Assembly: GCA_025356815.1 (NCBI GenBank)
Contig: JANXQL010000026.1
Location: forward strand, 62,001-126,000
DNA: 64,000 bases
Reading direction: 5' to 3'
From: Pseudomonadota bacterium
Lineage (GTDB): Bacteria > Pseudomonadota > Gammaproteobacteria > Steroidobacterales > Steroidobacteraceae
The notes below the pieces were generated by a model. That model ran no database searches. It was not told the DNA's origin and was given only the letters and a program-made list of their open reading frames with translations. Shown piece by piece: positions 19-20,044 of the stretch (position 1 is the stretch's first letter; every line of letters begins with the position of its first letter). A program made the position numbers and the translations under genes.

Positions 19-804
19 TCAATGGGCGATCAGGATGCCGCCGTCGATCGGGATGATGGCGCCGGTGATGTAGCTGCCGGCGCGCGAGCACAGGAACATG
101 GCGAGCCCTGCGATGTCATCCGGCGTCCCCGTGCGGCCCAACGGGATGGACTTCAGGAGCGCGTTGCGCGCAGCGGCGTCCTTGAGCACAAAGCCCGTCA
201 TCTTCGACGGGAACAGGCCCGGGGCGATCGCATTGCACAGGATCCGGCGCGCGGCGAGGTCGTGCGCCATGACACGGGTCAGCTGGTGGATCGCGGCCTT
301 GCTGGCGGTGTAGGAGTAGGCCTTCATGACCTCGGTCGTCTCGGCGTAGACGCTGCCGATGTTGATGATCCGGGCAGGGCTTTCGTCGCTGGCCGCGGCC
401 TCCAGCAGCGGCAGCAGCCCCTGCGCCAGCATGAACGGCGCCTGCACGTTGACGGTCATGACCGGCGACCAGGCTCTGGCCGGAAACTCCTCCAGCGGCG
501 CGCCCCAGGTCTGACCGGCGTTGTTCACCAGCACGTCGAGGCGTCTCTCGGCGGCGGTGAGTTCCGCGACGATGACGGCGACGCCCTCGGCCGTGCCGAG
601 ATCTGCGACGATGCCCCGCACGAAGGCGCCACCGGCACCCAGCTGCGCGACGGCCTCTGCCAGGGCATCGGGCTTGCGGCCGGTGATCCAGACGCGGGCG
701 CCGGCGGCGGCGAACCCTTCCGAGAGCATTCGGCCGATGCCGCCGACCCCTCCGGTGATCAGCACGGTCTTGCCGGCGACCGAGTACAGGCTGTTGAGGT
801 CCAT
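19..804 (-). CDS. SDR family oxidoreductase (classical, glucose 1-dehydrogenase/FabG-like)
   Basis: A 261-residue NAD(P)-dependent alcohol/ketone oxidoreductase of the classical short-chain dehydrogenase family. Seen: the cofactor motif TGGVGGIG (17-24), NNAG (94-97), the catalytic Ser151-Tyr165-Lys169 set (YTASK), and the C-terminal PIDGG. I start it at ATG 804 because GGGGAG sits seven bases upstream and the fold begins right after. An upstream in-frame ATG at 873 would add 23 residues that look non-coding. It is transcribed divergently from the B12-dependent mutase across a shared promoter region, so it probably acts on an alcohol or ketone of the same pathway. The substrate is not identifiable. 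Confidence 0.88.
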   Translation of the reverse strand: MDLNSLYSVAGKTVLITGGVGGIGRMLSEGFAAAGARVWITGRKPDALAEAVAQLGAGGAFVRGIVADLGTAEGVAVIVAELTAAERRLDVLVNNAGQTWGAPLEEFPARAWSPVMTVNVQAPFMLAQGLLPLLEAAASDESPARIINIGSVYAETTEVMKAYSYTASKAAIHQLTRVMAHDLAARRILCNAIAPGLFPSKMTGFVLKDAAARNALLKSIPLGRTGTPDDIAGLAMFLCSRAGSYITGAIIPIDGGILIAH

Positions 805-884
805 CGCAGCGCTCCCCTGCAGTGCATGGTCAGTTCCGGCTGCTTTTTCCGCCGGAATTGACTCTATGTACAAAATTAAAACTC

Positions 885-960: not shown

Positions 961-2592
961 ATGAGCCGTCCACCGCTACCGCCGACGTTCGCCACCCGCT
1001 CGGGCATCCCTCTGCGCGCATCCTACGGTCCCGAGGACGTACCCGAATCGCACCGCGCGGTGATGGGTACCCGTCCCGGTCAGCCGCCGTTCCATCGCGG
1101 CGGGTTCGCGCAAGGCTATCGCACCAAGCCCTGGCGCATCTTCCAGCTGTCGGGCTTCGGCAAGCCGGAAGACGAGAACGAGCGCATCAAGTTCCTGCTG
1201 GAACACGGCGAGACCGGCTTCCTGATGGAGCACGACCGCAACACCGCCGACCACATGTACAACGTCGACCACCCCGATGTGGTCGCCCGGCGGGAAGATG
1301 TCGGCCAGACCGGGGCGGTCATGCAGAGCGTGCGCGAGGTCGCCATCTGCCTGGACGGCATCCCGATCGAGTCGACCTATGGCCACGCCGGCGGCGCGGT
1401 CGTGCAGCACGCGCCGTTCGCGCTCGCCGCCTACTGGACCGTTGCCAAGCGCCGCGGCATTGCGCTGGACGCACTCGGCGGGACCGGCCAGAGCGACTTC
1501 TTCCTGACCTACCTCGGCTGCGTCACCAAGCAGCAGGTGCCGACCGCGGCCGGCCTGCGGCTCAACGCCGACATCATCGAGTTCTGCAGCGAGCACGTCC
1601 CCAAGTGGGTGCCGGTCTCGATAGCCGGCTACAACGGCGGCGACACGGGGCTGAACGCCTACCAGGAACTCGGCGCGGTGATCGCCAACGCCATCGAGTA
1701 CCTCGACGAGATCAAGCGCCGTGGCCGGCTCGACATGGCCACCGCCGCCTACCGCGTCGCGGGCGTCAATTTCCGCAGCACGATGGACATCTTCGAGGAC
1801 GCGGCCAAGCTGCGTGCCGCTCGCAAGATGTGGTGCACGCTGCTGCGGGACCGCTACGGCATCACCGACGAGCGCGCGCAACGGATGCGCATCCACATCG
1901 TCACGGCCGGGTCGATGATGACCTACCAGCAGCCGTTCAATAACATCGTGCGCGGCACGCTGATGGCCCTGTCCGCGGTGCTCGGCGGAACGCAGTCGCT
2001 GGGTGTCTCCGGCTATGACGAGGCGATCTCGATTCCTAGCGAGCACGCCCACCAGATGTCGGTGCGCATCCAGCAGATCCTGCAGCACGAGACCAATCTC
2101 GCGTCGGTGGCCGATCCGCTCGGCGGCTCCTACTACATCGAGACGCTCACCGCGGACATCGAGAAACGTGCATGGGAGTTCGCTGCCGACATCGAGCAGC
2201 GCGGCGGCTTCCTCGCGACGCTCGACTCGGGCTGGCTGCACGCCCGCGCCCGCGACAATCAGGTCGCCTGGCAGCAGGCCGAGAACGACGGGCGCCAGAC
2301 GATCGTCGGCGTGACCGACTTCCGCGGCGACTCGACGCCCTTCGAGGTGGACGGATTCCCCGGCGTGAACGACTCCTTCGACGTTGCGCTCGAACGCCTC
2401 CACACGGTCAAGCGCGAGCGCCACGAGGCAGGCGCGCACGCGGCGCTGAAGGGCCTCGAGGCGGCGTGCCGCGGCACTGCCAACGTGATGCCGGCGATGA
2501 TGGTCGCCCTCGACGCCGAGGTCACCCTGGGCGAGGTCGGCGATCTGTTCCGCGACGTGTGGGGCGACTGGCAGACCCCGGAGCTGATCTGA
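961..2592 (+). CDS. B12-dependent acyl-CoA mutase, large (catalytic) subunit, divergent
   Basis: A 543-residue protein matching the TIM-barrel catalytic domain of methylmalonyl-CoA mutase-type enzymes, which shift a carbonyl-CoA group between adjacent carbons by radical chemistry. Recognisable family blocks are SGFG (64-67), VDHPDV (102-107), PKW (214-216), the GTQSL block, the DEAISIP block and ADPLGGSYYIE. It lacks the B12-binding domain, which is the next gene, as in the split isobutyryl- and 2-hydroxyisobutyryl-CoA mutases. Aligned by hand, specificity positions differ from all three well-known types: Leu63 (Tyr/Phe/Ile elsewhere), Glu90 (Ala or Asp elsewhere) and Val188 (Arg or Gln elsewhere). 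Asn225 in GYN replaces the near-universal GYH histidine. The mutase family is clear; the substrate is not. Confidence 0.88.
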   Translation: MSRPPLPPTFATRSGIPLRASYGPEDVPESHRAVMGTRPGQPPFHRGGFAQGYRTKPWRIFQLSGFGKPEDENERIKFLLEHGETGFLMEHDRNTADHMYNVDHPDVVARREDVGQTGAVMQSVREVAICLDGIPIESTYGHAGGAVVQHAPFALAAYWTVAKRRGIALDALGGTGQSDFFLTYLGCVTKQQVPTAAGLRLNADIIEFCSEHVPKWVPVSIAGYNGGDTGLNAYQELGAVIANAIEYLDEIKRRGRLDMATAAYRVAGVNFRSTMDIFEDAAKLRAARKMWCTLLRDRYGITDERAQRMRIHIVTAGSMMTYQQPFNNIVRGTLMALSAVLGGTQSLGVSGYDEAISIPSEHAHQMSVRIQQILQHETNLASVADPLGGSYYIETLTADIEKRAWEFAADIEQRGGFLATLDSGWLHARARDNQVAWQQAENDGRQTIVGVTDFRGDSTPFEVDGFPGVNDSFDVALERLHTVKRERHEAGAHAALKGLEAACRGTANVMPAMMVALDAEVTLGEVGDLFRDVWGDWQTPELI

Positions 2593-2596
2593 CGCC

Positions 2597-2992
2597 ATGA
2601 CCAACGCCGCTGCCCGCATCCTGCTCGTGAAGACGTCCCTTGACGGCCACTGGCGCGGCCTGTCGGTCGTTGCCCGCGCGCTGCGCGACGCGGGCTTCCA
2701 CGTGATCATGGGGGGCATGCTCACCGGCGCCGAGATTGTCCGCGCCGCCGTGGACGAGGACGTGGACCTGGTGGGTCTGAACGTCGGTGGCCACGTCGAG
2801 GTGGTCATCCGGGTCATCGGCGAGCTGCGCGCCGCGCGGCAGGACCTGCCGATCTTCGCCGGCGGCGTCCTGCCGCCGTCCAGCTGCAGACGCCTAAATG
2901 CGATGGGCGTGGAGACTTTCCCGCCCGGCTCGTCGCTCGATGAGATCGTGGCCGCCGCACGCCGACTGACGGCACCCGTCGCGGGCGCCTGA
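2597..2992 (+). CDS. B12-binding (small) subunit of the acyl-CoA mutase
   Basis: A 131-residue cobalamin-binding domain of the methylmalonyl-CoA mutase C-terminal type. Seen: the base-off/His-on signature DGHWRG (Asp16, His18, Gly21), which supplies the lower axial ligand to cobalt, the conserved Lys12 four residues before the Asp, and a GGV turn near residue 98. It begins four bases after the large-subunit stop, so the two are translated together and should form an alpha/beta complex. The GLNVGGH stretch stands where SxLxGAH-like sequences are usual. The length fits stand-alone small subunits such as those of isobutyryl- or 2-hydroxyisobutyryl-CoA mutase. The stop lies 7 bases from the stop of the convergent meaB gene. 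Confidence 0.93.
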   Translation: MTNAAARILLVKTSLDGHWRGLSVVARALRDAGFHVIMGGMLTGAEIVRAAVDEDVDLVGLNVGGHVEVVIRVIGELRAARQDLPIFAGGVLPPSSCRRLNAMGVETFPPGSSLDEIVAAARRLTAPVAGA

Positions 2993-5250: not shown

Positions 5251-6888
5251 ATGAACTCGCCCACGACCGTGCCGACGCGCCACGCCGATCCGCGCGTCCC
5301 GGCGCGCGAAACCTGCGTTGTCCGCTATCTGATCGACCGCTTTGCCGCGGAGCGGCCGAAGCAGGTATACGCGCTGTTCGACGGCGGGCTCAGCTTCACC
5401 TTCGGCGAGCTGGCGCGCCGCACGCGGTGCATCGCCGCGGGCCTTGCGCAGCTGGGTGTCGCTCAGGGCGACCACGTGCTTGCCTGGCAGCCGAACACCC
5501 CGGAAATGCTACTGACGTTTTTCGCGATCAACTATCTCGGCGCGGTGTACGTGCCAATCAACACCGCCTTTCGCGGCGGCGTGCTCGAGCACGTGATCGA
5601 CAACTCCGATGCTAGCGTGGCAATCGTCCATGCCGACCTCGTGCCGCGGCTGCACGGCGTGCGGCTGGCCCGGCTCGCGCAACTGGTGGTCGTCGGCGGC
5701 GCGGTGCCGGCGCAGGTGCCGCTGCCGTCAGTGCCGTTCGCGACCCTTGAGCACGGCGCGGCCGAACCCGGCCCGCTGAAGCGGCCGATCGAGCCGTGGC
5801 ACACGCAGTCGATCATCTATACGTCGGGCACGACCGGGCCGTCCAAGGGTGTGCTGTCGTCATACCTGCACATGTACACGAACCCCGGGCCGGAGGCCTG
5901 GCACTTCGTGACCGGCGCGGATCGCTTCCTGGTCAACATGCCAATGTTCCACATCGGCGGACTGGGCCTTTCGTTCGCGATGCTGGCGCGCGGCGGCTCG
6001 CTGGTGATGCCGGAGCGGTTCTCGACAGAACGCTTCTGGCCGCTGGTACGGGAGACCGAGGTGACGGTCGTGTTCCTGCTCGGCGTCATGGCGACCTTCC
6101 TGCTGAAGGCGCCGCCGTCGCCCGACGACCGCCGCCATCAGGTGGCCAAGTGCTTCATCGTGCCATTGAGCGAGGGCTCGCAGCAGTTCCATGATCGCTT
6201 CGGCATCGACGTCTACACGATTTTCAACATGACCGAGATCTCCTCGCCGATCGTCTCGGAGCCGAACCCCGCCGTGCGTGGCACCTGCGGCAAGGTGCGT
6301 GCCGGCGTCGACGTCCGGCTCGTGGACGAGAACGACTGTGAGGTCGCGACCGGCAGCGTCGGCGAGATGATCGTGCGCACCGACCGGCCGTGGGCGATGA
6401 ATAGCGGCTACTACAAGAACGTCGAGGCCACTGTGAGCGCCTGGCGCAACGGCTGGTTCCATACCGGCGATGCGTTCCGATGCGATGCCGACGGCAACTT
6501 CTTCTTCGTCGACCGCATCAAGGACGCGATTCGTCGGCGCGGCGAGAACATCTCCTCCTTCGAGGTGGAGGCCGAGATCGTGGCCTACCCGGACGTACGC
6601 GAGGCAGCGGTGATCGCCGTGCCCAGCGAGTTCGGCGAGGACGAGGTGATGGCGGTGGTCGCCGCCGCTCCCGGTCGCGAAATCGACCCGGCGGCGCTAA
6701 TCGAGTTCCTGCGCGAGCGGCTGGCCTACTTCATGATCCCGCGCTATATCCGCATCCTGCCGGAACTGCCGAAGACGCCCTCGTCGAAGGTCCTGAAAAC
6801 CGACCTGCGCACGACCGGGATCACCGTCGAGACCTGGGACCGCGAAAAGGCGGGGATCGTCGTCCGGCGCGATAAGATCGGCAACTGA
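5251..6888 (+). CDS. acyl-CoA synthetase (AMP-forming, CaiC-like)
   Basis: A 545-residue ANL-superfamily ligase that activates a carboxylic acid to its CoA thioester with ATP. Seen: A3 P-loop YTSGTTGPSKG (190-200), an A5-like FNMTEISSP, A7 WFHTGD, the A8 hinge DRIKDAIRRRGENIS and the catalytic C-terminal Lys in PSSKVLK. FNMTE together with RRRGENIS is the style of crotonobetaine/carnitine-CoA ligases, whose relatives often handle small or unusual acids. ATG 5251 is chosen because the predicted promoter would start transcription just before it and the fold begins soon after; no strong Shine-Dalgarno is visible. First gene of a seven-gene rightward run ending at 14412, and the probable entry enzyme of the pathway. 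Confidence 0.88.
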   Translation: MNSPTTVPTRHADPRVPARETCVVRYLIDRFAAERPKQVYALFDGGLSFTFGELARRTRCIAAGLAQLGVAQGDHVLAWQPNTPEMLLTFFAINYLGAVYVPINTAFRGGVLEHVIDNSDASVAIVHADLVPRLHGVRLARLAQLVVVGGAVPAQVPLPSVPFATLEHGAAEPGPLKRPIEPWHTQSIIYTSGTTGPSKGVLSSYLHMYTNPGPEAWHFVTGADRFLVNMPMFHIGGLGLSFAMLARGGSLVMPERFSTERFWPLVRETEVTVVFLLGVMATFLLKAPPSPDDRRHQVAKCFIVPLSEGSQQFHDRFGIDVYTIFNMTEISSPIVSEPNPAVRGTCGKVRAGVDVRLVDENDCEVATGSVGEMIVRTDRPWAMNSGYYKNVEATVSAWRNGWFHTGDAFRCDADGNFFFVDRIKDAIRRRGENISSFEVEAEIVAYPDVREAAVIAVPSEFGEDEVMAVVAAAPGREIDPAALIEFLRERLAYFMIPRYIRILPELPKTPSSKVLKTDLRTTGITVETWDREKAGIVVRRDKIGN

Positions 6889-6938: not shown

Positions 6939-7547
6939 ATGAAGTCACCCGAACTGAAGACCGAGGTCCAGGAATTCAAGCGCCGGCGCATCCTTGAGGA
7001 GTCGCGCGAGCTGTTCTATTCGCTCGGTTACGAGGCGACGACGCTGGACGCGATCGCGGAAGGCCTGAACGTCACCAAGCCGTTCATTTACTCCTACTTC
7101 AAGAACAAGAGTGAGATCCTGCGGGCGATCTGCGAAATCGGCATCCGCTCTTCCCTGGCAGCGCTCGCCGAGGCGCTGGCAACATCGCTGCCGCCGCGCG
7201 AGAAGCTGCGGATGATCGTCGACAGCGTCGTCTCGATCATCATCAAGAACCAGAAGTACATCGTCGTCTACGAGCGCGAGGAAAAGAACCTCCAGCCGCG
7301 CGATGCCAAGCAGCTGATGGCACTGCGCAAGGAGTTCGGCATTCACCTCGCAACGCTGCTCGAGGCCGGTGCCCGCAGCGGCGACTTCGACGTCGACGAC
7401 CCGGTGCTGACCGCGGTCTCGATCGGCGGGCTGGTGACCTGGGTGGCCAGCTGGTACCGGCCGCTCGGTCGCTGGACACAGACCGACGTGACCGCGCACA
7501 TGATCCGCAACGTCGAGCGGATGGTGTGCCGCCACCCCGTGCCGTGA
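6939..7547 (+). CDS. TetR family transcriptional regulator
   Basis: A 202-residue TetR-type repressor. The N-terminal helix-turn-helix is clear: TLDAIAEGLNVTKPFIYSYF followed by KNKSEIL, about residues 30-60. The rest is the helical ligand-binding domain, as in regulators of acyl-CoA or fatty-acid catabolism. It sits second in the ligase operon, between the ligase and the dienoyl-CoA-reductase-like SDR, so it probably regulates the island in response to a pathway acyl-CoA. The palindromes at 907-914 and 5195-5202 (RGTATACY) are candidate binding sites. Ligand and targets are inferred only from position. Confidence 0.9.
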   Translation: MKSPELKTEVQEFKRRRILEESRELFYSLGYEATTLDAIAEGLNVTKPFIYSYFKNKSEILRAICEIGIRSSLAALAEALATSLPPREKLRMIVDSVVSIIIKNQKYIVVYEREEKNLQPRDAKQLMALRKEFGIHLATLLEAGARSGDFDVDDPVLTAVSIGGLVTWVASWYRPLGRWTQTDVTAHMIRNVERMVCRHPVP

Positions 7548-7566: not shown

Positions 7567-8400
7567 ATGACTTCCTCCGCTTTCGCTCCGAACCTGCTGC
7601 TCTCGCGCGTCGCCTTCGTGACCGGCGGCAGCTCGGGAATCAACAAGGCGCTCGCCCGCCGCTTCCTCGAGCAGGGCGCGTCGGTGGTGATCGTCGCCCG
7701 CAATGTCGGCCGCCTGGAGGCCGCCCAGGCCGAGCTCGACGCGCTCGCGCCGGGGCGCGTGCAGGCCGCTTGCGCGGACGTCCGTGACGGCGACGCCGTG
7801 CAGGCCGCGGCCGACGCGGGCGCCGAATGCTTCGGCCGCTACGACATCGTGATCGCGGGCGCCGCCGGCAACTTTCTGAGCCCGACCGCGCTTCTGAGCT
7901 CGAACGCGTTCGCCGCGGTCGTCGACACCGACCTGAAGGGCACCTTCCACACCTTCCGCGCCTGCTACCGCCACCTCGCGCCGCGCGCGCGCCTGATCGC
8001 GATCTCGGCACCGCAGGCGCAACTGCCGATGGCGCTGCAGGCACACGCCTGTGCTGCCAAGGCCGGCATCGAGGCGCTGGTGCGCACGCTCGCCATCGAA
8101 TGGGGCGGAATCGACGGCGCACGCGTGAACGCGCTCTCACCCGGCCTCGTGGCGGGCACGCACGGTGCGGAGATCTTCCTGCAGGCCGTTGGCGAAGCGG
8201 CGCTGGTCGGTGGCCAGCCGATTCCAAGACTGGCGACGCTCGACGAGATCGCCGACGCCGCGCTGTTCCTCGCCGGACCGACCGGCGACTACGTCACGGG
8301 ACTCACGCTTGCGATCGACGGCGGCCTCGGCCTGCCGACGACCGCGGCGGCGGCGATCGGCGCCGCCGCTACTCGCGCCCTGGCCGCCGCCAGACGCTAA
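7567..8400 (+). CDS. SDR oxidoreductase, 2,4-dienoyl-CoA reductase (DECR)-like
   Basis: A 277-residue NADP-dependent SDR. Seen: TGGSSGI (19-25), the AGAAGNFLSP block (97-106) and Ser147. The usual YxxxK is replaced: HACAAK (160-165) keeps Lys165 but has Ala161 at the tyrosine position. The AGNFLSP and HAxxAKAG signatures are those of eukaryotic and bacterial 2,4-dienoyl-CoA reductases, which lack the classical tyrosine. It probably reduces a conjugated dienoyl-CoA, removing a double bond that would block beta-oxidation. It lies between the TetR gene and a thiolase in the same operon. The exact substrate is unknown. Confidence 0.82.
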   Translation: MTSSAFAPNLLLSRVAFVTGGSSGINKALARRFLEQGASVVIVARNVGRLEAAQAELDALAPGRVQAACADVRDGDAVQAAADAGAECFGRYDIVIAGAAGNFLSPTALLSSNAFAAVVDTDLKGTFHTFRACYRHLAPRARLIAISAPQAQLPMALQAHACAAKAGIEALVRTLAIEWGGIDGARVNALSPGLVAGTHGAEIFLQAVGEAALVGGQPIPRLATLDEIADAALFLAGPTGDYVTGLTLAIDGGLGLPTTAAAAIGAAATRALAAARR

Positions 8401-8473: not shown

Positions 8474-9682
8474 ATGACCGACGCATACATCTACGACCAC
8501 CTGCGCACGCCGCGCGGCCGCGGCCGCGCCGACGGGGCGCTGCATGAGGTACCTGCGATCGCACTCGCGAGCCAGACGCTCGCGGCGCTTCGCGACCGCA
8601 ATGGGCTCGATACGCGGGCGATCGACGACGTCATCCTCGGCTGTGTATCCCCGATCGGCGATCAGGGCTCGGCGATCGGCCGCGTCGCGGCACTCAACGC
8701 GGGCTTCGACGACAGCGTCGCCGGCTACCAGCTGAACCGCTTCTGCGCCTCCGGACTCGAAGCGATCAACAGCGGCGCCGCGCAGATCATGTCCGGCCAG
8801 GCGGACGCGGTGATTGCGGGCGGCGTCGAGAGCATGTCGCGCGTGCCGATCGCGGCCGACGGGGGGGCCTGGTACGGCGACCCGACAGTTGCCCGTCAGG
8901 TCTACTTCGTTCCGCAGGGCATCGGCGCGGACCTGATCGCGACGCTCGACGGCTACACGCGCACCGACGTCGATACCTTCGCGCTGGAGAGCCAGCGGCG
9001 CGCCGCGGCAGCCATGGCCGACGGACGCTTTGCCGCCTCGCTGGTCCCCGTCAGGGACGTCATCGGCGAGGTGCTGCTGGCGCGCGACGAGCACCCACGA
9101 CCGGCGACCACGCTCGCCGACCTCGGCGCACTCAAGCCCGCGTTCCTGCAGGCCGGCGAGGAAGGCGGCTTCGCCGCGGTCGCCATGCAGCGTTATCCGT
9201 CCGTTGAGGCGATCCGCTACGTGCACACCGCCGGCAACTCCAGCGGCATCGTCGACGGCGCAGCTGCCGTGCTGCTAGGCAGCAAGAGCGCCGGCAAGCG
9301 CCTGGGCCGCGCGCCGCGGGCCCGCATCCGCGCATTCGCCTCCATCGGCAGCGAGCCGACGATCATGCTGACCGGCCCGGCGCTCGCCACCCACAAGCTG
9401 CTCAAGCGCGCCCGCATGTCGCTGGCGGACATCGACCTATTCGAAGTCAACGAGGCCTTCGCCGCGGTCGTGATGCGTTTCATGCGCGAGACCGGCGTGC
9501 CGCACGACAAGGTCAACGTCAACGGCGGCGCGATCGCGTTCGGGCACCCGCTCGGCGCGACCGGCGCGATGATCCTCGGCATGGCCGTGGACGAACTCGA
9601 GCGGCGCAACCTCGGCACTGCGCTGATCACCCTGTGCGTCGGCGCCGGCATGGGCACCGCCACCATCATCGAACGCGTCTGA
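8474..9682 (+). CDS. thiolase family protein (acetyl-CoA C-acyltransferase)
   Basis: A 402-residue thiolase that cleaves a 3-ketoacyl-CoA with CoA in the last beta-oxidation step. Seen: the acylated cysteine Cys91 in [10 protein letters not shown], the NEAFAA asparagine motif, the histidine motif [15 protein letters not shown], and the second cysteine in CVGAGMGT. Start ATG 8474; an upstream in-frame extension overlaps the preceding SDR in another frame and is rejected. It ends 11 bases before the multifunctional enzyme, whose Shine-Dalgarno overlaps its stop. Together they form a FadA/FadJ-like pair. Confidence 0.93.
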
Positions 9683-9693
9683 GGAAGGTACTC

Positions 9694-11862
9694 ATGTACA
9701 CCACCCTCAAGATCGGCATCGACGCCGACGGTATCGCCACGATCACCATCGACGTCCCCGACCGGCCGATGAACGTGTTCACACCCGCACTCACGGCGGA
9801 TCTCGGCGCCGCCATCACGGCGCTCGGCGCCGACGCATCGGTGCGCGGCGTCCTGATCACATCCGGCAAGTCGAGCTTCATCGCCGGCGCGGACATCAAG
9901 GATATCGCCAGCGCCTACGACCGGGGCATCGCGCCCACGGTGGCTTACCAGTGGAGCCAGACGCTGTCACAGACGTTCCGCCGGCTCGAGACGATCGGCA
10001 AGCCGGTCGCCGCCGCGATCAATGGCGTCGCACTCGGCGGCGGCCTCGAACTCGCCCTCGCCTGCCACTATCGGGTGCTCGCCGACGACGCGAAGGCCGT
10101 GGTCGGCCTGCCGGAGGTCAAGATCGGCCTGTTGCCCGGCGCCGGAGGCACCGCGCGCGTACCGCGGCTGATCGGCATCGCGGCCGCCGCGAAGCTCATG
10201 ACGGACGGCTCGAGCGTGACCCCCGCCGAGGCGCTCAGGATGGGGCTCGTCCACGAGCTCGCGCCGCGTGGCGAGGTCGCGTCCCGCGCCCGTGCCTGGC
10301 TGATGGGCAAGCCCGAGGCCATGGCGCCGTGGGATCGCAAGGGGTTCCGCATTCCCGGTGGCGCGGGACTCACCAACGCCGCGATCGCGCAGACCTTCTC
10401 CATCGGCACTGCGCTGATCACCAAGAGCGCCGGCCGGAACTACCCTGCCCCCGGCGAGATCCTCAGCGCGCTGTACGAGGGCACCACGGTTCCGTTCGAG
10501 CTCGCACTGAAGCTGGAATCGAAGCACTTCGCCCGCCTGCTGACTGGCGCCGTGGCGCGCAACCTGATGCGCACGCTGTTCCTGCACAAAGGCGAGCTCG
10601 ACAAGCTGTCGCGGCGCCCGCCGGGCGAGCCGAAGGTCGAGCTCAAGCGTCTGGGCATCCTAGGCGCCGGCATGATGGGCGCGGGCATCGCGCACGTCGC
10701 TGCACTCGCAGGTGTGGAGGTCGTGCTGATCGATGCCACCGACGGGCAGGCCGTCCGCGGCAAGGCGCACGCCGAGCGGCAGCTGGCCCGCGACGTGGAG
10801 AAGGGGCGGCGCAGCGCGGAGTCCGCCGCACAGGTGCTCGCCCGGATCACGGCGACCAGCGACTACGCCGGCCTCGCCGGCTGCGAGCTGGTCGTCGAGG
10901 CCGTCTTCGAGGACCGCGCCGTCAAGGCCGAAGTCACCCGCCGCGCGCTGCAGGTCATGTCGAAGGACGCCGTGTTCGCCAGCAATACCTCGACGCTGCC
11001 GATCTCGGGACTCGCCGCAGCCTCGCCACGGCCTGCGCAGTTCATCGGCATCCACTTCTTCTCGCCGGTCGAACGCATGCCGCTGGTGGAGATCATCCTC
11101 GGCAAGAAGACGCGACCAGCGACGCTTGCGCGGGCTCTGGATTTCGTCGGCCTGCTGAAGAAGACGCCGATCGTCGTCAACGACAGTCGTGGGTTCTACA
11201 CGACGCGCGTGTTCGGCGCCTATTGCCACGAGGGCCAGGCGATGCTCGCCGAGGGCGTCGACCCCGCGCTGATCGAGAACGCCGGACGCCTCGCAGGCAT
11301 GCCCGTCGGCCCGCTTGCGGTCACCGACGAGGTCTCGCTGGAGCTGCAGTACCGCGCGACGCGCCAGGCCATGGAGGACCTCGGCGAACGCTTCGTGCCG
11401 CCGGTGTCCATGCCGGTGCTGACGCACTTCGTCGAGGACCTCCAGCGCCTCGGCCGCAAGAGCGGCGGCGGCTTCTACGACTACCCCGCCGACGGCCCGA
11501 AGCGACTTTGGACGGGGCTTGCGCAGCATTACCCGCGCGCGCCGGTGCAGCCGTCGGTCGAGCAGGTCAAGCAGCGCCTGCTGCACATCCAGGCGCTCGA
11601 AGCAGCCCGCTGCTACGAGGAGGGCGTCGTCACGACCGCCGCCGAGGCCGACGTCGGATCGATTCTCGGCATCGGCTTCCCGGCCTGGACCGGCGGCACG
11701 CTGTCGTATATCGATACGCTCGGCGTCGCACGCTTCGTCGGCGACTGCGAGAAGCTCTCCCGCACGGTCGGCAGGCGCTTCAAGCCGCCGCGCGGCCTGA
11801 AGGCACGTGCCACGTCCGACACGCCGTTCCATCCGCGCCCCGCCACAGGCGACGCCGCCTGA
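9694..11862 (+). CDS. multifunctional enoyl-CoA hydratase / 3-hydroxyacyl-CoA dehydrogenase (FadJ-like)
   Basis: A 722-residue fusion doing two successive beta-oxidation steps. The N-terminal crotonase part (about 1-190) has the FIAGADIKD oxyanion-hole loop, [13 protein letters not shown] and [15 protein letters not shown]. The NAD-binding dehydrogenase part begins near residue 315 with [11 protein letters not shown], has the catalytic histidine in [13 protein letters not shown], and closes with two C-terminal 3HCDH domains. The start is fixed by GAGGAAGG just before ATG 9694. Length and order fit FadB/FadJ alpha subunits. Its position between a thiolase and an acyl-CoA dehydrogenase places it in the island's main beta-oxidation operon. 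Confidence 0.94.
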
Positions 11863-11882
11863 CATTGATTGAGGTCGAGTCC

Positions 11883-13043
<1,161 letters not shown>

Positions 13044-17877: not shown

Positions 17878-19032
17878 ATGAAGCGCTACATCCAGTACCC
17901 GCGCGTCGCCGGCACCGCCAGCCGCCAGGCCCACGCCGACCTGCCGCCGGGGACCTACGAGCGGGAAATGGGCAAGGAGGGCTTCTTCGGCCCCGCCGCC
18001 TTCTTCCATCACCGCCATCCGCCGACCGGCTGGACCCGCTTCGAGGGTCCGCTGCGACCGCACGCCTTCGACCTGAGCCGCCTCGCCACACCGGCCACCT
18101 CGCCGTGGGATGCGGCCCCTGTCCTCGAGAATGCCCACTGCCGCATCCGCTGGCTCGCGCTGGATGCGTCGATGGACCACCTGGCGCGCAATGCCGATGG
18201 CGACGAGCTGCTGTTCGTGCATGCCGGGCAGGCGAGCCTGTACTGCGACTTCGGCCACCTCCAGATCGAGGCCGGCGACTATGTGGTGCTGCCGCGCGGC
18301 ACGATGTGGCGGCTCGAGAGCGCCGCGCCGCTGCGGGTGCTGATGATCGAGGCGACCAACGCCGCCTACCTGCTGCCGGACAAGGGCCTCGTCGGCGCGC
18401 AAGCGATCTTCGATCCGGCGATGCTCGACGTGCCGGCGCTGGACGACGCGTTCCGGGCGCAGCAGGAGCAAGGCCCGGCCGGCGGCGCGGCGGGCGAGCG
18501 CGGCTGGCAGGTACGGATCAAGCGCCGCCAGCAGGTGTCGATCGCGCACTATCCGTTCAATCCGCTGGACGCGGTCGGCTGGCACGGCGACCTCGCGGTG
18601 TGCCGCATCAACGTGCGCAACCTGCGCCCGCTCATGAGCCACCGCTACCACCTGCCACCGTCGGCGCACACCACCTTCGTCGCCAACCGCTTCGTCGTCT
18701 GCACTTTCGTGCCGCGGCCGTTCGAGACCGACCCGGGCGCGCTGAAGGTGCCCTTCTTCCATAACAATGACGACTACGACGAGGTGATCTTCTATCACGC
18801 CGGGGACTTCTTCTCGCGCGACAACATCCACCCCGGTATGGTCACCTTCCATCCGGCCGGCTTCACGCACGGCCCGCACCCGAAGGCGCTGTCGCGGATG
18901 CTGGTGCAACCCAAGCCCGCGACCGACGAGTACGCCGTGATGATCGATACGCGCGACGCGCTGGAGCTCGGCGCTGCCGCCGCAGGCGTCGCATGGCCTG
19001 ATTACGTGGACAGCTGGCAGGGAGGCGCCTGA
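17878..19032 (+). CDS. hmgA: homogentisate 1,2-dioxygenase-family protein (short form)
   Basis: A 384-residue cupin-fold ring-cleavage dioxygenase matching homogentisate dioxygenase, which opens homogentisate to maleylacetoacetate with Fe(II) and O2. Seen: the N-terminal GFFGPAAFFHHRHPP block, a cupin-like AGDYVVLPRGTMW segment and the C-terminal iron-site region HNNDDYDEV, then FTHGPHP with the HGP histidine. Well-studied enzymes are about 430-445 residues and space their His and Glu ligands H-x5-E; here the spacing looks like H-x6-E. This short subgroup may therefore use a related ring substrate. GGAG precedes ATG 17878. The fumarylacetoacetase gene 22 bases downstream supports a homogentisate-type route. 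Maleylacetoacetate isomerase is not in the window. Confidence 0.75.
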   Translation: MKRYIQYPRVAGTASRQAHADLPPGTYEREMGKEGFFGPAAFFHHRHPPTGWTRFEGPLRPHAFDLSRLATPATSPWDAAPVLENAHCRIRWLALDASMDHLARNADGDELLFVHAGQASLYCDFGHLQIEAGDYVVLPRGTMWRLESAAPLRVLMIEATNAAYLLPDKGLVGAQAIFDPAMLDVPALDDAFRAQQEQGPAGGAAGERGWQVRIKRRQQVSIAHYPFNPLDAVGWHGDLAVCRINVRNLRPLMSHRYHLPPSAHTTFVANRFVVCTFVPRPFETDPGALKVPFFHNNDDYDEVIFYHAGDFFSRDNIHPGMVTFHPAGFTHGPHPKALSRMLVQPKPATDEYAVMIDTRDALELGAAAAGVAWPDYVDSWQGGA

Positions 19033-19054
19033 AGCGCGCCGCGGAGATTTCCCG

Positions 19055-20044
19055 ATGAAGCTCGCAAGTCTCAAGCACGGCCGTGATGGCCGGCTGGTCG
19101 TCGTCGACGCGGACCTCAGGCACTACGCAATCGCCGCCGGCGTCGCTGCAACCCTGCAGGATGCGCTCGACGACTGGGGGCGCTGCGCACCGCGCCTGCA
19201 CGACCTTGCCGTGACGCTGGCCGCCCACCAGGCGAAGGAAGCGCTCTCGTTCGAGCCTGCCGCCTGTGCCTCGCCGCTGCCGAGGGCGTACCACTGGGTC
19301 GACGGCTCGGCCTACGTCAACCACGTGGAGCTCGTGCGCAAGGCGCGCGGTGCGCAGCTGCCGCCCTCGTTCTGGGTCGACCCGCTGGTCTACCAGGGCG
19401 GCAGCGACGACTTCCTCGGACCGACCGAGGACGCGCCATTCGCGAGCGAGGAATACGGCATCGACTTCGAGGCCGAGGTCGCCGTGATCGTCGGCGACGT
19501 GCCCATGGGCTCCACCGCCGCCGAGGTGCGCGGCCGCGGCGACATCCGGCTGGTCATGCTCGTCAACGACTGGAGCCTGCGAAACCTGATCCCGGGCGAG
19601 CTCGCCAAGGGCTTCGGCTTCTACCAATCGAAGCCCGCCACGGCGTTCTCGCCGGTGGCCGTGACCCCCGACGAACTGGGCGCGGCCTGGCACGACTGCA
19701 AACTCCACCTGCCGCTGCACAGCGCGATCAACGGCACGCCGTTCGGCCGGCCCGAGGCGGGGGAGGACATGACCTTCGACTTCAGCCAGCTCATCGAGCA
19801 CTGTGCCCGCACCCGCAACCTGCGCGCAGGCACCATTGTCGGCTCCGGGACCGTTTCCAACTACGACCGCAGCCGGGGCTCGGCCTGCATCGCCGAACGC
19901 CGGATGCTGGAGCAGCTGGACGGCGGCAGCGCCACGACTCCGTTCCTCGCCTACGGCGACCAGGTCCGGATCGAGATGTTCGACGCCCGCGGCCGCAGCC
20001 TGTTCGGGGCCATCGAGCAGCGAGTCATCCGCCCCTGGCGTTGA
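19055..20044 (+). CDS. fumarylacetoacetate hydrolase family protein
   Basis: A 329-residue FAH-family hydrolase that cleaves a C-C bond in a beta-diketone product of ring cleavage, classically fumarylacetoacetate to fumarate and acetoacetate. Seen: the metal-binding EEYGIDFEAEVAVIVG segment, VNDWSLRN (Asp ligand), FYQSKPATAFSP and GSGTVSNYD. GGAG lies before ATG 19055. Its tight linkage to the homogentisate dioxygenase-like gene assigns it to the same operon and to fumarylacetoacetate or a homologue. The length fits the bacterial two-gene homogentisate clusters. It lacks the N-terminal SH3-like extension of mammalian FAH. Confidence 0.87.
   Translation: MKLASLKHGRDGRLVVVDADLRHYAIAAGVAATLQDALDDWGRCAPRLHDLAVTLAAHQAKEALSFEPAACASPLPRAYHWVDGSAYVNHVELVRKARGAQLPPSFWVDPLVYQGGSDDFLGPTEDAPFASEEYGIDFEAEVAVIVGDVPMGSTAAEVRGRGDIRLVMLVNDWSLRNLIPGELAKGFGFYQSKPATAFSPVAVTPDELGAAWHDCKLHLPLHSAINGTPFGRPEAGEDMTFDFSQLIEHCARTRNLRAGTIVGSGTVSNYDRSRGSACIAERRMLEQLDGGSATTPFLAYGDQVRIEMFDARGRSLFGAIEQRVIRPWR

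Follow-up and report, generated by a model that had tools for sequence, protein, structure and literature searches.

To our knowledge, only a few carbon-skeleton rearrangements have been described for B12-dependent acyl-CoA mutases, and each newly found one gave access to a catabolic route around a branched or quaternary carbon. The known types include the 2-hydroxyisobutyryl-CoA mutases (HCM), as given in excerpts of PMC11599936 and PMC7176365, and the benzylmalonyl-CoA mutase IaaGH, as given in an excerpt of PMC8360864. According to the excerpt of PMC7176365, the HCM genes are adjoined by genes for a ligase and a MeaB-type protein. Here, a mutase gene pair from a member of the Steroidobacteraceae is compared with HCM, methylmalonyl-CoA mutase (MCM), the fused isobutyryl-CoA mutase (ICM) IcmF and ethylmalonyl-CoA mutase (ECM). 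The pair lies in a stretch of 64,000 nucleotides, referred to as the window, which corresponds to C92:62001-126000 (contig JANXQL010000026.1) of a genome of 4.0 Mb in 207 contigs. The mutase forms a separate subfamily within the MCM/ICM/HCM/ECM superfamily and has a pocket that is conserved across its homologues. The pair probably acts as an adenosylcobalamin-dependent acyl-CoA mutase that shifts the CoA-carbonyl of a hindered acid for beta-oxidation. In the open literature searched by titles and abstract openings, which is not all print, no description of this clade was found; judged by sequence, it would be a new subfamily within a known mutase superfamily. The two genes are as follows:

961-2592, forward strand: large (barrel) subunit of the mutase, 543 amino acids (aa); PF01642, 466 bits over 961-2589
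2597-2992, forward strand: B12-binding small subunit, 131 aa, with K12 and D16xH18xxG21; TIGR00640 above cut-off

A preliminary description of this DNA had called a B12-dependent acyl-CoA mutase pair at 961-2992. Both open reading frames (ORFs) are intact at these positions, and the matches to PF01642 and to the B12-binding Pfam family PF02310 (63 bits over 2597-2989) agree with the call. Membership in the acyl-CoA mutase superfamily rests on the MM_CoA_mutase barrel and the separate B12 domain with its DxHxxG motif. The PF01642 match alone would misname the gene 'methylmalonyl-CoA mutase'. Among the NCBIfam models, the large subunit passed only the general N-domain model TIGR00641, and its equivalog scores are all far below the cut-offs (338 against 876 bits for MCM, 143 against 617 for MCM-beta and 147 against 1500 for IcmF). 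The large subunit was also modeled with AlphaFold2 from 33 of 62 homologues, resulting in a pLDDT of 77.4 and a pTM of 0.84, with pLDDT below 50 at residues 141-146, 317-320 and 351-359. The closest solved structure to this model is HCM 4r3u (TM 0.86), followed by 1req (0.84) and 2xiq (0.83); by Z score, 4r3u (37.2) and MCM 1req (36.9) are nearly tied.

In three maximum-likelihood trees, 15 sampled members of the 62 form one clade with support of 100/100, and this clade lies outside MCM, HCM, IcmF and ECM. Placement inside an MCM clade, which the preliminary description had named as one result that would speak against its proposal, was found in none of the trees. The first tree was built without G_L098-L101 and with one IcmF trimmed. 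For the second, 22 rows were removed (mostly MCM-like, with the MCM beta chain and G_L075 among them) and three IcmF were cut down to their last 600 residues; X_L128 was also left out of the third. The reference set is without stand-alone IcmA and without a characterised pivalyl-CoA mutase or IaaGH; its Marinobacter-type rows are perhaps IaaGH-like. The stem of the query clade has a length of 2.23 in the second tree, compared to 2.29 for ECM and 2.98 for IcmF. The MCM clade is recovered without the query clade at 100/100 in the second tree and 100/99 in the third, and the HCM group likewise at 97/94 in the third. A topology that unites the query clade with the HCM group is rejected only weakly, at the borderline (approximately unbiased (AU) test, p 0.043).

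The substrate pocket differs from that of the known types at positions that are invariant in the clade. Residue equivalences were derived with phmmer and three MAFFT runs against the sequences of solved MCM and HCM chains. The 62 homologues consist of the window protein and the proteins of 61 loci; they were retrieved with short peptide patterns matching the query exactly and are therefore near it by construction, and these patterns do not span positions 63, 90, 91, 187, 188 and 225. The codons concerned are:

1147-1149, forward strand: Leu63 codon, at the MCM Tyr89 position (Ile in HCM); Leu in 62 of 62 homologues
1228-1233, forward strand: Glu90-His91 codons, at MCM Ala116-Phe117 (Asp-Phe in HCM); 62 of 62
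1519-1524, forward strand: Cys187-Val188 codons, with MCM Arg207 on one or the other; Cys187 in 62 of 62, Val188 in 55 of 62
1633-1635, forward strand: Asn225 codon, at the MCM His244 position; Asn in 62 of 62

At positions 63, 90, 91 and 225, phmmer and all three MAFFT runs give the same equivalences, which upholds the assignments of Leu63, Glu90, His91 and Asn225 made earlier. An alignment artefact behind the missing Tyr, Arg and His was rejected on the same grounds, and the alignments to solved chains confirmed the replacements, with none of the three canonical residues at a shifted position. The placement of Val188 at Arg207 is uncertain by one residue, as two MAFFT runs give V188 and phmmer with one MAFFT run gives C187; neither is Arg or Gln, so that part of the claim holds. 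Position 188 reads V in 55, I in five, L in one and P in one of the homologues, and the S285 column lands on A267 or G268 depending on the alignment. Identical in all 62 are R59, F61, L63, E90, H91, R93, T175, Q177, C187, Y224, N225, G268, R272, H312, Q345, G348, S350 and E354. The clade keeps the MCM residues Q197 (Gln177), Y243 (Tyr224), H328 (His312), Q361 (Gln345) and E370 (Glu354), and has lost Y89, A116, F117, R87, S114, R207, H244, Q330 and N366. In MCM and HCM, these kept and lost residues are contacts to the substrate, the thioester and the adenosyl group.

Five of the changes relative to MCM replace a large side chain with a smaller one (Y89 to L, R207 to V or C, H244 to N, H364 to G and N366 to S), and such changes would make room for a bulkier acyl group. 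Polar groups on the acyl substrate may be hinted at by Glu90 and Arg272. Three invariant arginines are without counterpart in the reference rows, namely R59 (T85 in MCM), R93 (L119) and R272 (G289), and from their strand positions they appear to face or flank the barrel. Over a first shell of 21 positions, the window protein has 5-8 residues in common with each of six references, namely MCM, HCM, IcmF and ECM together with two uncharacterised types, one from Sinorhizobium and one from Marinobacter, and the references share 9-19 among themselves.

Compared directly with the named mutases, HcmAB of Aquincola (4r3u) shares with the window pair its two-subunit layout, its fold, the acidic residue at the Asp117 column and, as far as the excerpt of PMC7176365 describes the HCM side, the ligase and MeaB-type genes beside the mutase genes. 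At 32% identity to it, the window protein replaces Ile with Leu, Asp-Phe with Glu-His, Gln with Val or Cys and His244 with Asn. The HCM pocket is marked by Ile90 or a Val in its place, by Asp117 and Gln208, and by a His at the 244 position; the window protein reads L, E, V/C and N. MCM (1req, 2xij) shares the PF01642 fold and Gln197, Tyr243, His328, Gln361 and Glu370, at 29% identity, whereas Tyr89, Arg207, His244, Arg87 and Asn366 are lost; the Tyr89, Arg207 and His244 characteristic of MCM are L63, V188/C187 and N225 here. The fused IcmF (4xc6, and 5cjw with pivalyl-CoA) has the superfamily and cofactor chemistry in common with the pair; identity is 25%, the window protein is not fused to B12 or G domains, IcmF's Phe/Gln pocket is absent, and the query clade stands on its own. 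ECM (meaA) belongs to the same superfamily, is 27% identical and also has Asn366 replaced. However, the ECM rows keep Tyr89, Arg207 and His244 and have a fused B12 domain, while the window protein has neither the Tyr/Arg pocket nor a place in the ECM clade.

The small subunit was compared with the HCM subunit, with an alpha chain of MCM and with a mutase subunit from an archaeon. All 61 small subunits have K12, D16, H18, G21 and the GG pair, and because this ligand set is invariant, base-off B12 binding is likely. The SxL stretch, a secondary motif of the B12 domain, is two residues shorter and reads N-I/V instead (N in 50, S in nine and H in two of the 61). Directly after the cobalt-ligating His, all 61 carry a Trp in place of the Asp found in the aligned relatives, and the surroundings of the lower ligand would accordingly differ from those of relatives. 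The earlier expectation that this subunit binds its cofactor normally is weakened by the missing SxL and the Trp after the His, although the invariant ligand set and the adjacent MeaB gene speak for it.

The subfamily was found at 63 loci in species genomes, which by their record titles belong to Halieaceae and relatives, Steroidobacteraceae, other Gammaproteobacteria and some Alphaproteobacteria; the large-subunit ORF clustered in 61 of these and not in L052 and L066. Close orthologues are present in 17 of 81 sampled Halieaceae genomes (66-72% identity), in five of 40 closely related genomes, one of them the window's own (at least 72% identity), and in one of 299 sampled Pseudomonadota genomes, again the window's own. 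Cultured carriers include Haliea alexandrii, Pseudohaliea rubra and Kineobactrum sediminis. In a plasmid collection, 426 records match the mutase, every one below 60% identity. The distribution is patchy and accessory. Eight carrier genomes were examined for other mutases. In seven of them a distinct MCM-like gene was present, with reading frames of 714-739 residues that score 756-803 bits against PF01642; the eighth has an IcmF-sized match rather than such a gene. At least one further mutase match is found in 15 of the 17 Halieaceae carriers, and in the window's genome PF01642 otherwise matches two pieces, located on C178 and C172. The separate MCM-like gene in seven of eight carriers argues against the pair being the housekeeping MCM of its genome and supports a different role. 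Against four relatives, dN is 0.03-0.15 and dS is 0.56-1.55, indicating purifying selection. The gene is therefore not decaying, and a pseudogene was rejected.

The genes around the pair are the following, with counts from the 37 loci that have 5 kb on both sides (neighbouring ORFs clustered at 45% identity):

19-873, reverse strand: short-chain dehydrogenase 'SDR15'; 11 of 37 loci, also near the mutase in the Rhodobacteraceae metagenome-assembled genome (MAG) L036
3000-3950, reverse strand: MeaB-type GTPase chaperone; TIGR00750 above cut-off, PF03308
3955-5130, reverse strand: iron-containing alcohol dehydrogenase (Fe-ADH); PF00465/PF25137, start approximate
5260-6888, forward strand: AMP-dependent acyl-CoA ligase; PF00501, start inferred from homologue length
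6939-7547, forward strand: TetR-type regulator; family in 30 of 37 loci
7567-8400, forward strand: second short-chain dehydrogenase 'SDR22'; PF13561, 4 of 37 loci
8477-9682, forward strand: acetyl-CoA C-acyltransferase (thiolase); PRK08242 above cut-off, 8 of 37 loci
9691-11862, forward strand: FadB-like hydratase/3-hydroxyacyl-CoA dehydrogenase; PF00378, PF02737 and PF00725, start inferred, 4 of 37 loci
11880-13043, forward strand: acyl-CoA dehydrogenase; ORF judged by eye, start approximate

In addition to these counts, the 37 loci contain the B12 subunit (36), the ligase (32), Fe-ADH (31), MeaB (29), a TonB receptor (28), an enoyl-CoA hydratase (26), a P450 (17), an SfnG/RutA-like flavin (LLM) monooxygenase (13, below both cut-offs), a lactonase-like hydrolase (11) and an acyl-CoA dehydrogenase (11). 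The gene set is a conserved catabolic cassette of patchy occurrence. In the window's genome (L067), a TonB receptor, a hydrolase and a hydratase lie just upstream of the mutase region and the thiolase, FadB and acyl-CoA dehydrogenase lie downstream; an acyl-CoA dehydrogenase family likewise follows FadB in L004, L005 and L008. L036 contains the ligase, mutase, SDR, thiolase, FadB and acyl-CoA dehydrogenase together with a TRAP permease. In the alphaproteobacterial L034 and L053, other oxidoreductases were seen by eye around the mutase, including a PaaA/PaaC-like protein in L034. The top PDB matches of the Fe-ADH include maleylacetate reductases (3jzd, 3w5s), and the ligase of 542 aa scores 486 bits to PRK06155, below the cut-off of 722. 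Similarity look-ups of the P450 and Fe-ADH yielded no substrate clue, and that of the ligase yielded zero matches at a strict limit of 1e-60, at which the result says little.

From this gene set, a possible order of steps can be drawn. An imported compound would be oxygenated and opened by the P450, flavin monooxygenase and hydrolase where these are present, the Fe-ADH may adjust the oxygenated intermediate, and the neighbouring ligase would then activate the carboxylic acid. By analogy with the family, homolysis of the cobalt-carbon bond would yield a 5'-deoxyadenosyl radical that abstracts a hydrogen, followed by a 1,2-shift of the thioester carbonyl. The mutase would thereby relocate the CoA-carbonyl from a tertiary, quaternary or 2-hydroxy carbon at which beta-oxidation is blocked, and the chain may be completed by a hydratase, dehydrogenases and a thiolase, encoded here or elsewhere. 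The TonB receptor, P450, SfnG/RutA-like monooxygenase and lactonase-like hydrolase present in some loci point to a pathway that begins with an alicyclic or terpenoid compound bearing oxygen, and our guess for the substrate class is a hindered, oxygenated and probably alicyclic or terpenoid acid. The position outside the MCM, HCM, IcmF and ECM clades and a role beyond the genome's MCM are supported; the different rearrangement put forward in the preliminary description is still a proposal.

Several observations weigh against a hindered-acid mutase of a separate subfamily. The sister of the clade varies with sampling (clade B at 88/45, X_L128 at 77/94, clade B at 93/90), and the tree program warned of meeting long branches in all three trees. 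Of the columns conserved in at least eight of ten reference rows, 11 lie in the shell, of which the clade keeps four, and 107 lie outside it, of which the clade keeps 67, so remodelling of the shell beyond the rest of the protein is a trend and not proof (Fisher p 0.11; p 0.30 and 0.41 at the nine- and ten-of-ten levels). Loss of His244, R87, S114 and Q330 could mean low activity or another mode of binding. The ligase family is absent from five of the 37 loci, the thiolase and FadB of the window fall outside the wider cassette, and the P450 and LLM monooxygenase each occur in less than half of the loci. The TRAP permease of L036 and, by eye, a TRAP binding protein there fit a small acid over a bulky terpenoid.

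A bolder reading, which we regard as tentative, is that this clade, perhaps together with clade B, is a branch in which His244 and a large part of the CoA channel were lost, and that it would catalyse a carbon-skeleton rearrangement so far undescribed in nature. The acyl group would be bulky, oxygenated and terpenoid or alicyclic, and its mode of binding would be new. The subfamily of 63 loci, the invariant pocket lacking His244 and the presence of the cassette in named Halieaceae strains make a new reaction directly testable.

It is doubtful that the pair is instead an HCM-like 2-hydroxyacyl-CoA mutase, in which Glu90 would, like Asp117 of HCM, hold the hydroxyl of a 2-hydroxy-2-alkyl acyl-CoA and deliver a 3-hydroxyacyl-CoA to the SDR and thiolase. 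HCM 4r3u is the nearest solved relative by sequence (307 bits, against 232 for human MCM) as well as by fold, the acidic residue stands in the same column, and both the window and L036 have genes for an SDR, FadB and a thiolase close to the mutase. However, the equivalents of HCM Ile90, the Phe after Asp117, Gln208 and His244 are all replaced and the joint clade with HCM is weakly rejected; the ligase is a PRK06155-like enzyme, and no search was aimed at an HCM-type ligase. A mutase for a carboxylated acyl-CoA of the substituted succinyl or malonyl type is improbable. The invariant R59, R93 and R272, which appear to face or flank the barrel, would allow a relocated carboxylate site at any of the three, but Tyr89 and Arg207 are lost and the named neighbour clusters include no CoA-transferase or decarboxylase. 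The earlier argument against methylmalonyl-CoA from the loss of the carboxylate-binding Arg is weakened by these arginines. A degenerate or regulatory relative without catalysis, for which the changes at His244 and several further first-shell positions could speak, is very improbable given the retained Gln177, Tyr224, His312, Gln345, Glu354 and B12 ligands, the purifying selection and the MeaB gene in most loci.

Clade B comprises the divergent PF01642 proteins at L117:7622-9370, L116:3857-5578 and L120:7102-8853 and those of L127 and L106 (grouped as L106/L117). It is a possible sister of the query clade, as placed in the third tree, and shares with it the Glu at the A116 column, the loss of His244 and the adjacent MeaB and B12 subunit genes; it differs in its other neighbours, with 30% identity and four of 21 first-shell residues in common. 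Clade B has Gln for His244, Ala for Tyr243 and Val for Gln197. It keeps one of 11 conserved first-shell and 75 of 107 scaffold columns (p 1.2e-4), and with this even more altered pocket, it may be the stranger enzyme of the two clades. It is found on 12 Sphingobium plasmids (that of L116 included), 11 of them from 'Tom' strains, at 74-76% identity to L117. A P450 and a TonB receptor are annotated near it in L116. Judged by eye, L116 and L117 each have an EthD-like protein, and L117 has a KstD-like flavoprotein as well. In Haliea alexandrii, APH-type kinase-like and acyl-CoA-dehydrogenase-like ORFs (L120:2935-5597, by eye) lie near the clade B mutase, and these are reminiscent of ACAD10/11.

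A scan of window positions 1-26000 against Rfam at gathering scores gave zero matches, and the presence of known RNA elements, B12 riboswitches among them, was rejected for this part of the locus. At 17878-20044 of the window, a homogentisate-dioxygenase-like ORF is followed by a fumarylacetoacetase-like ORF, both judged by eye. Two further divergent mutases were observed elsewhere. On a plasmid of Roseovarius sp. THAF8 (L110:3905-5581), a mutase large subunit has LLPCNSG in place of the AFDLPT motif, keeps His244 and lies near a ligase, MeaB and a haloalkane dehalogenase. In a Halieaceae genome (G396), L128 encodes a very divergent PF01642 protein, read over 537 aa, which carries Phe in place of His244 and Trp in the column of D199 and forms a long branch in the second tree.

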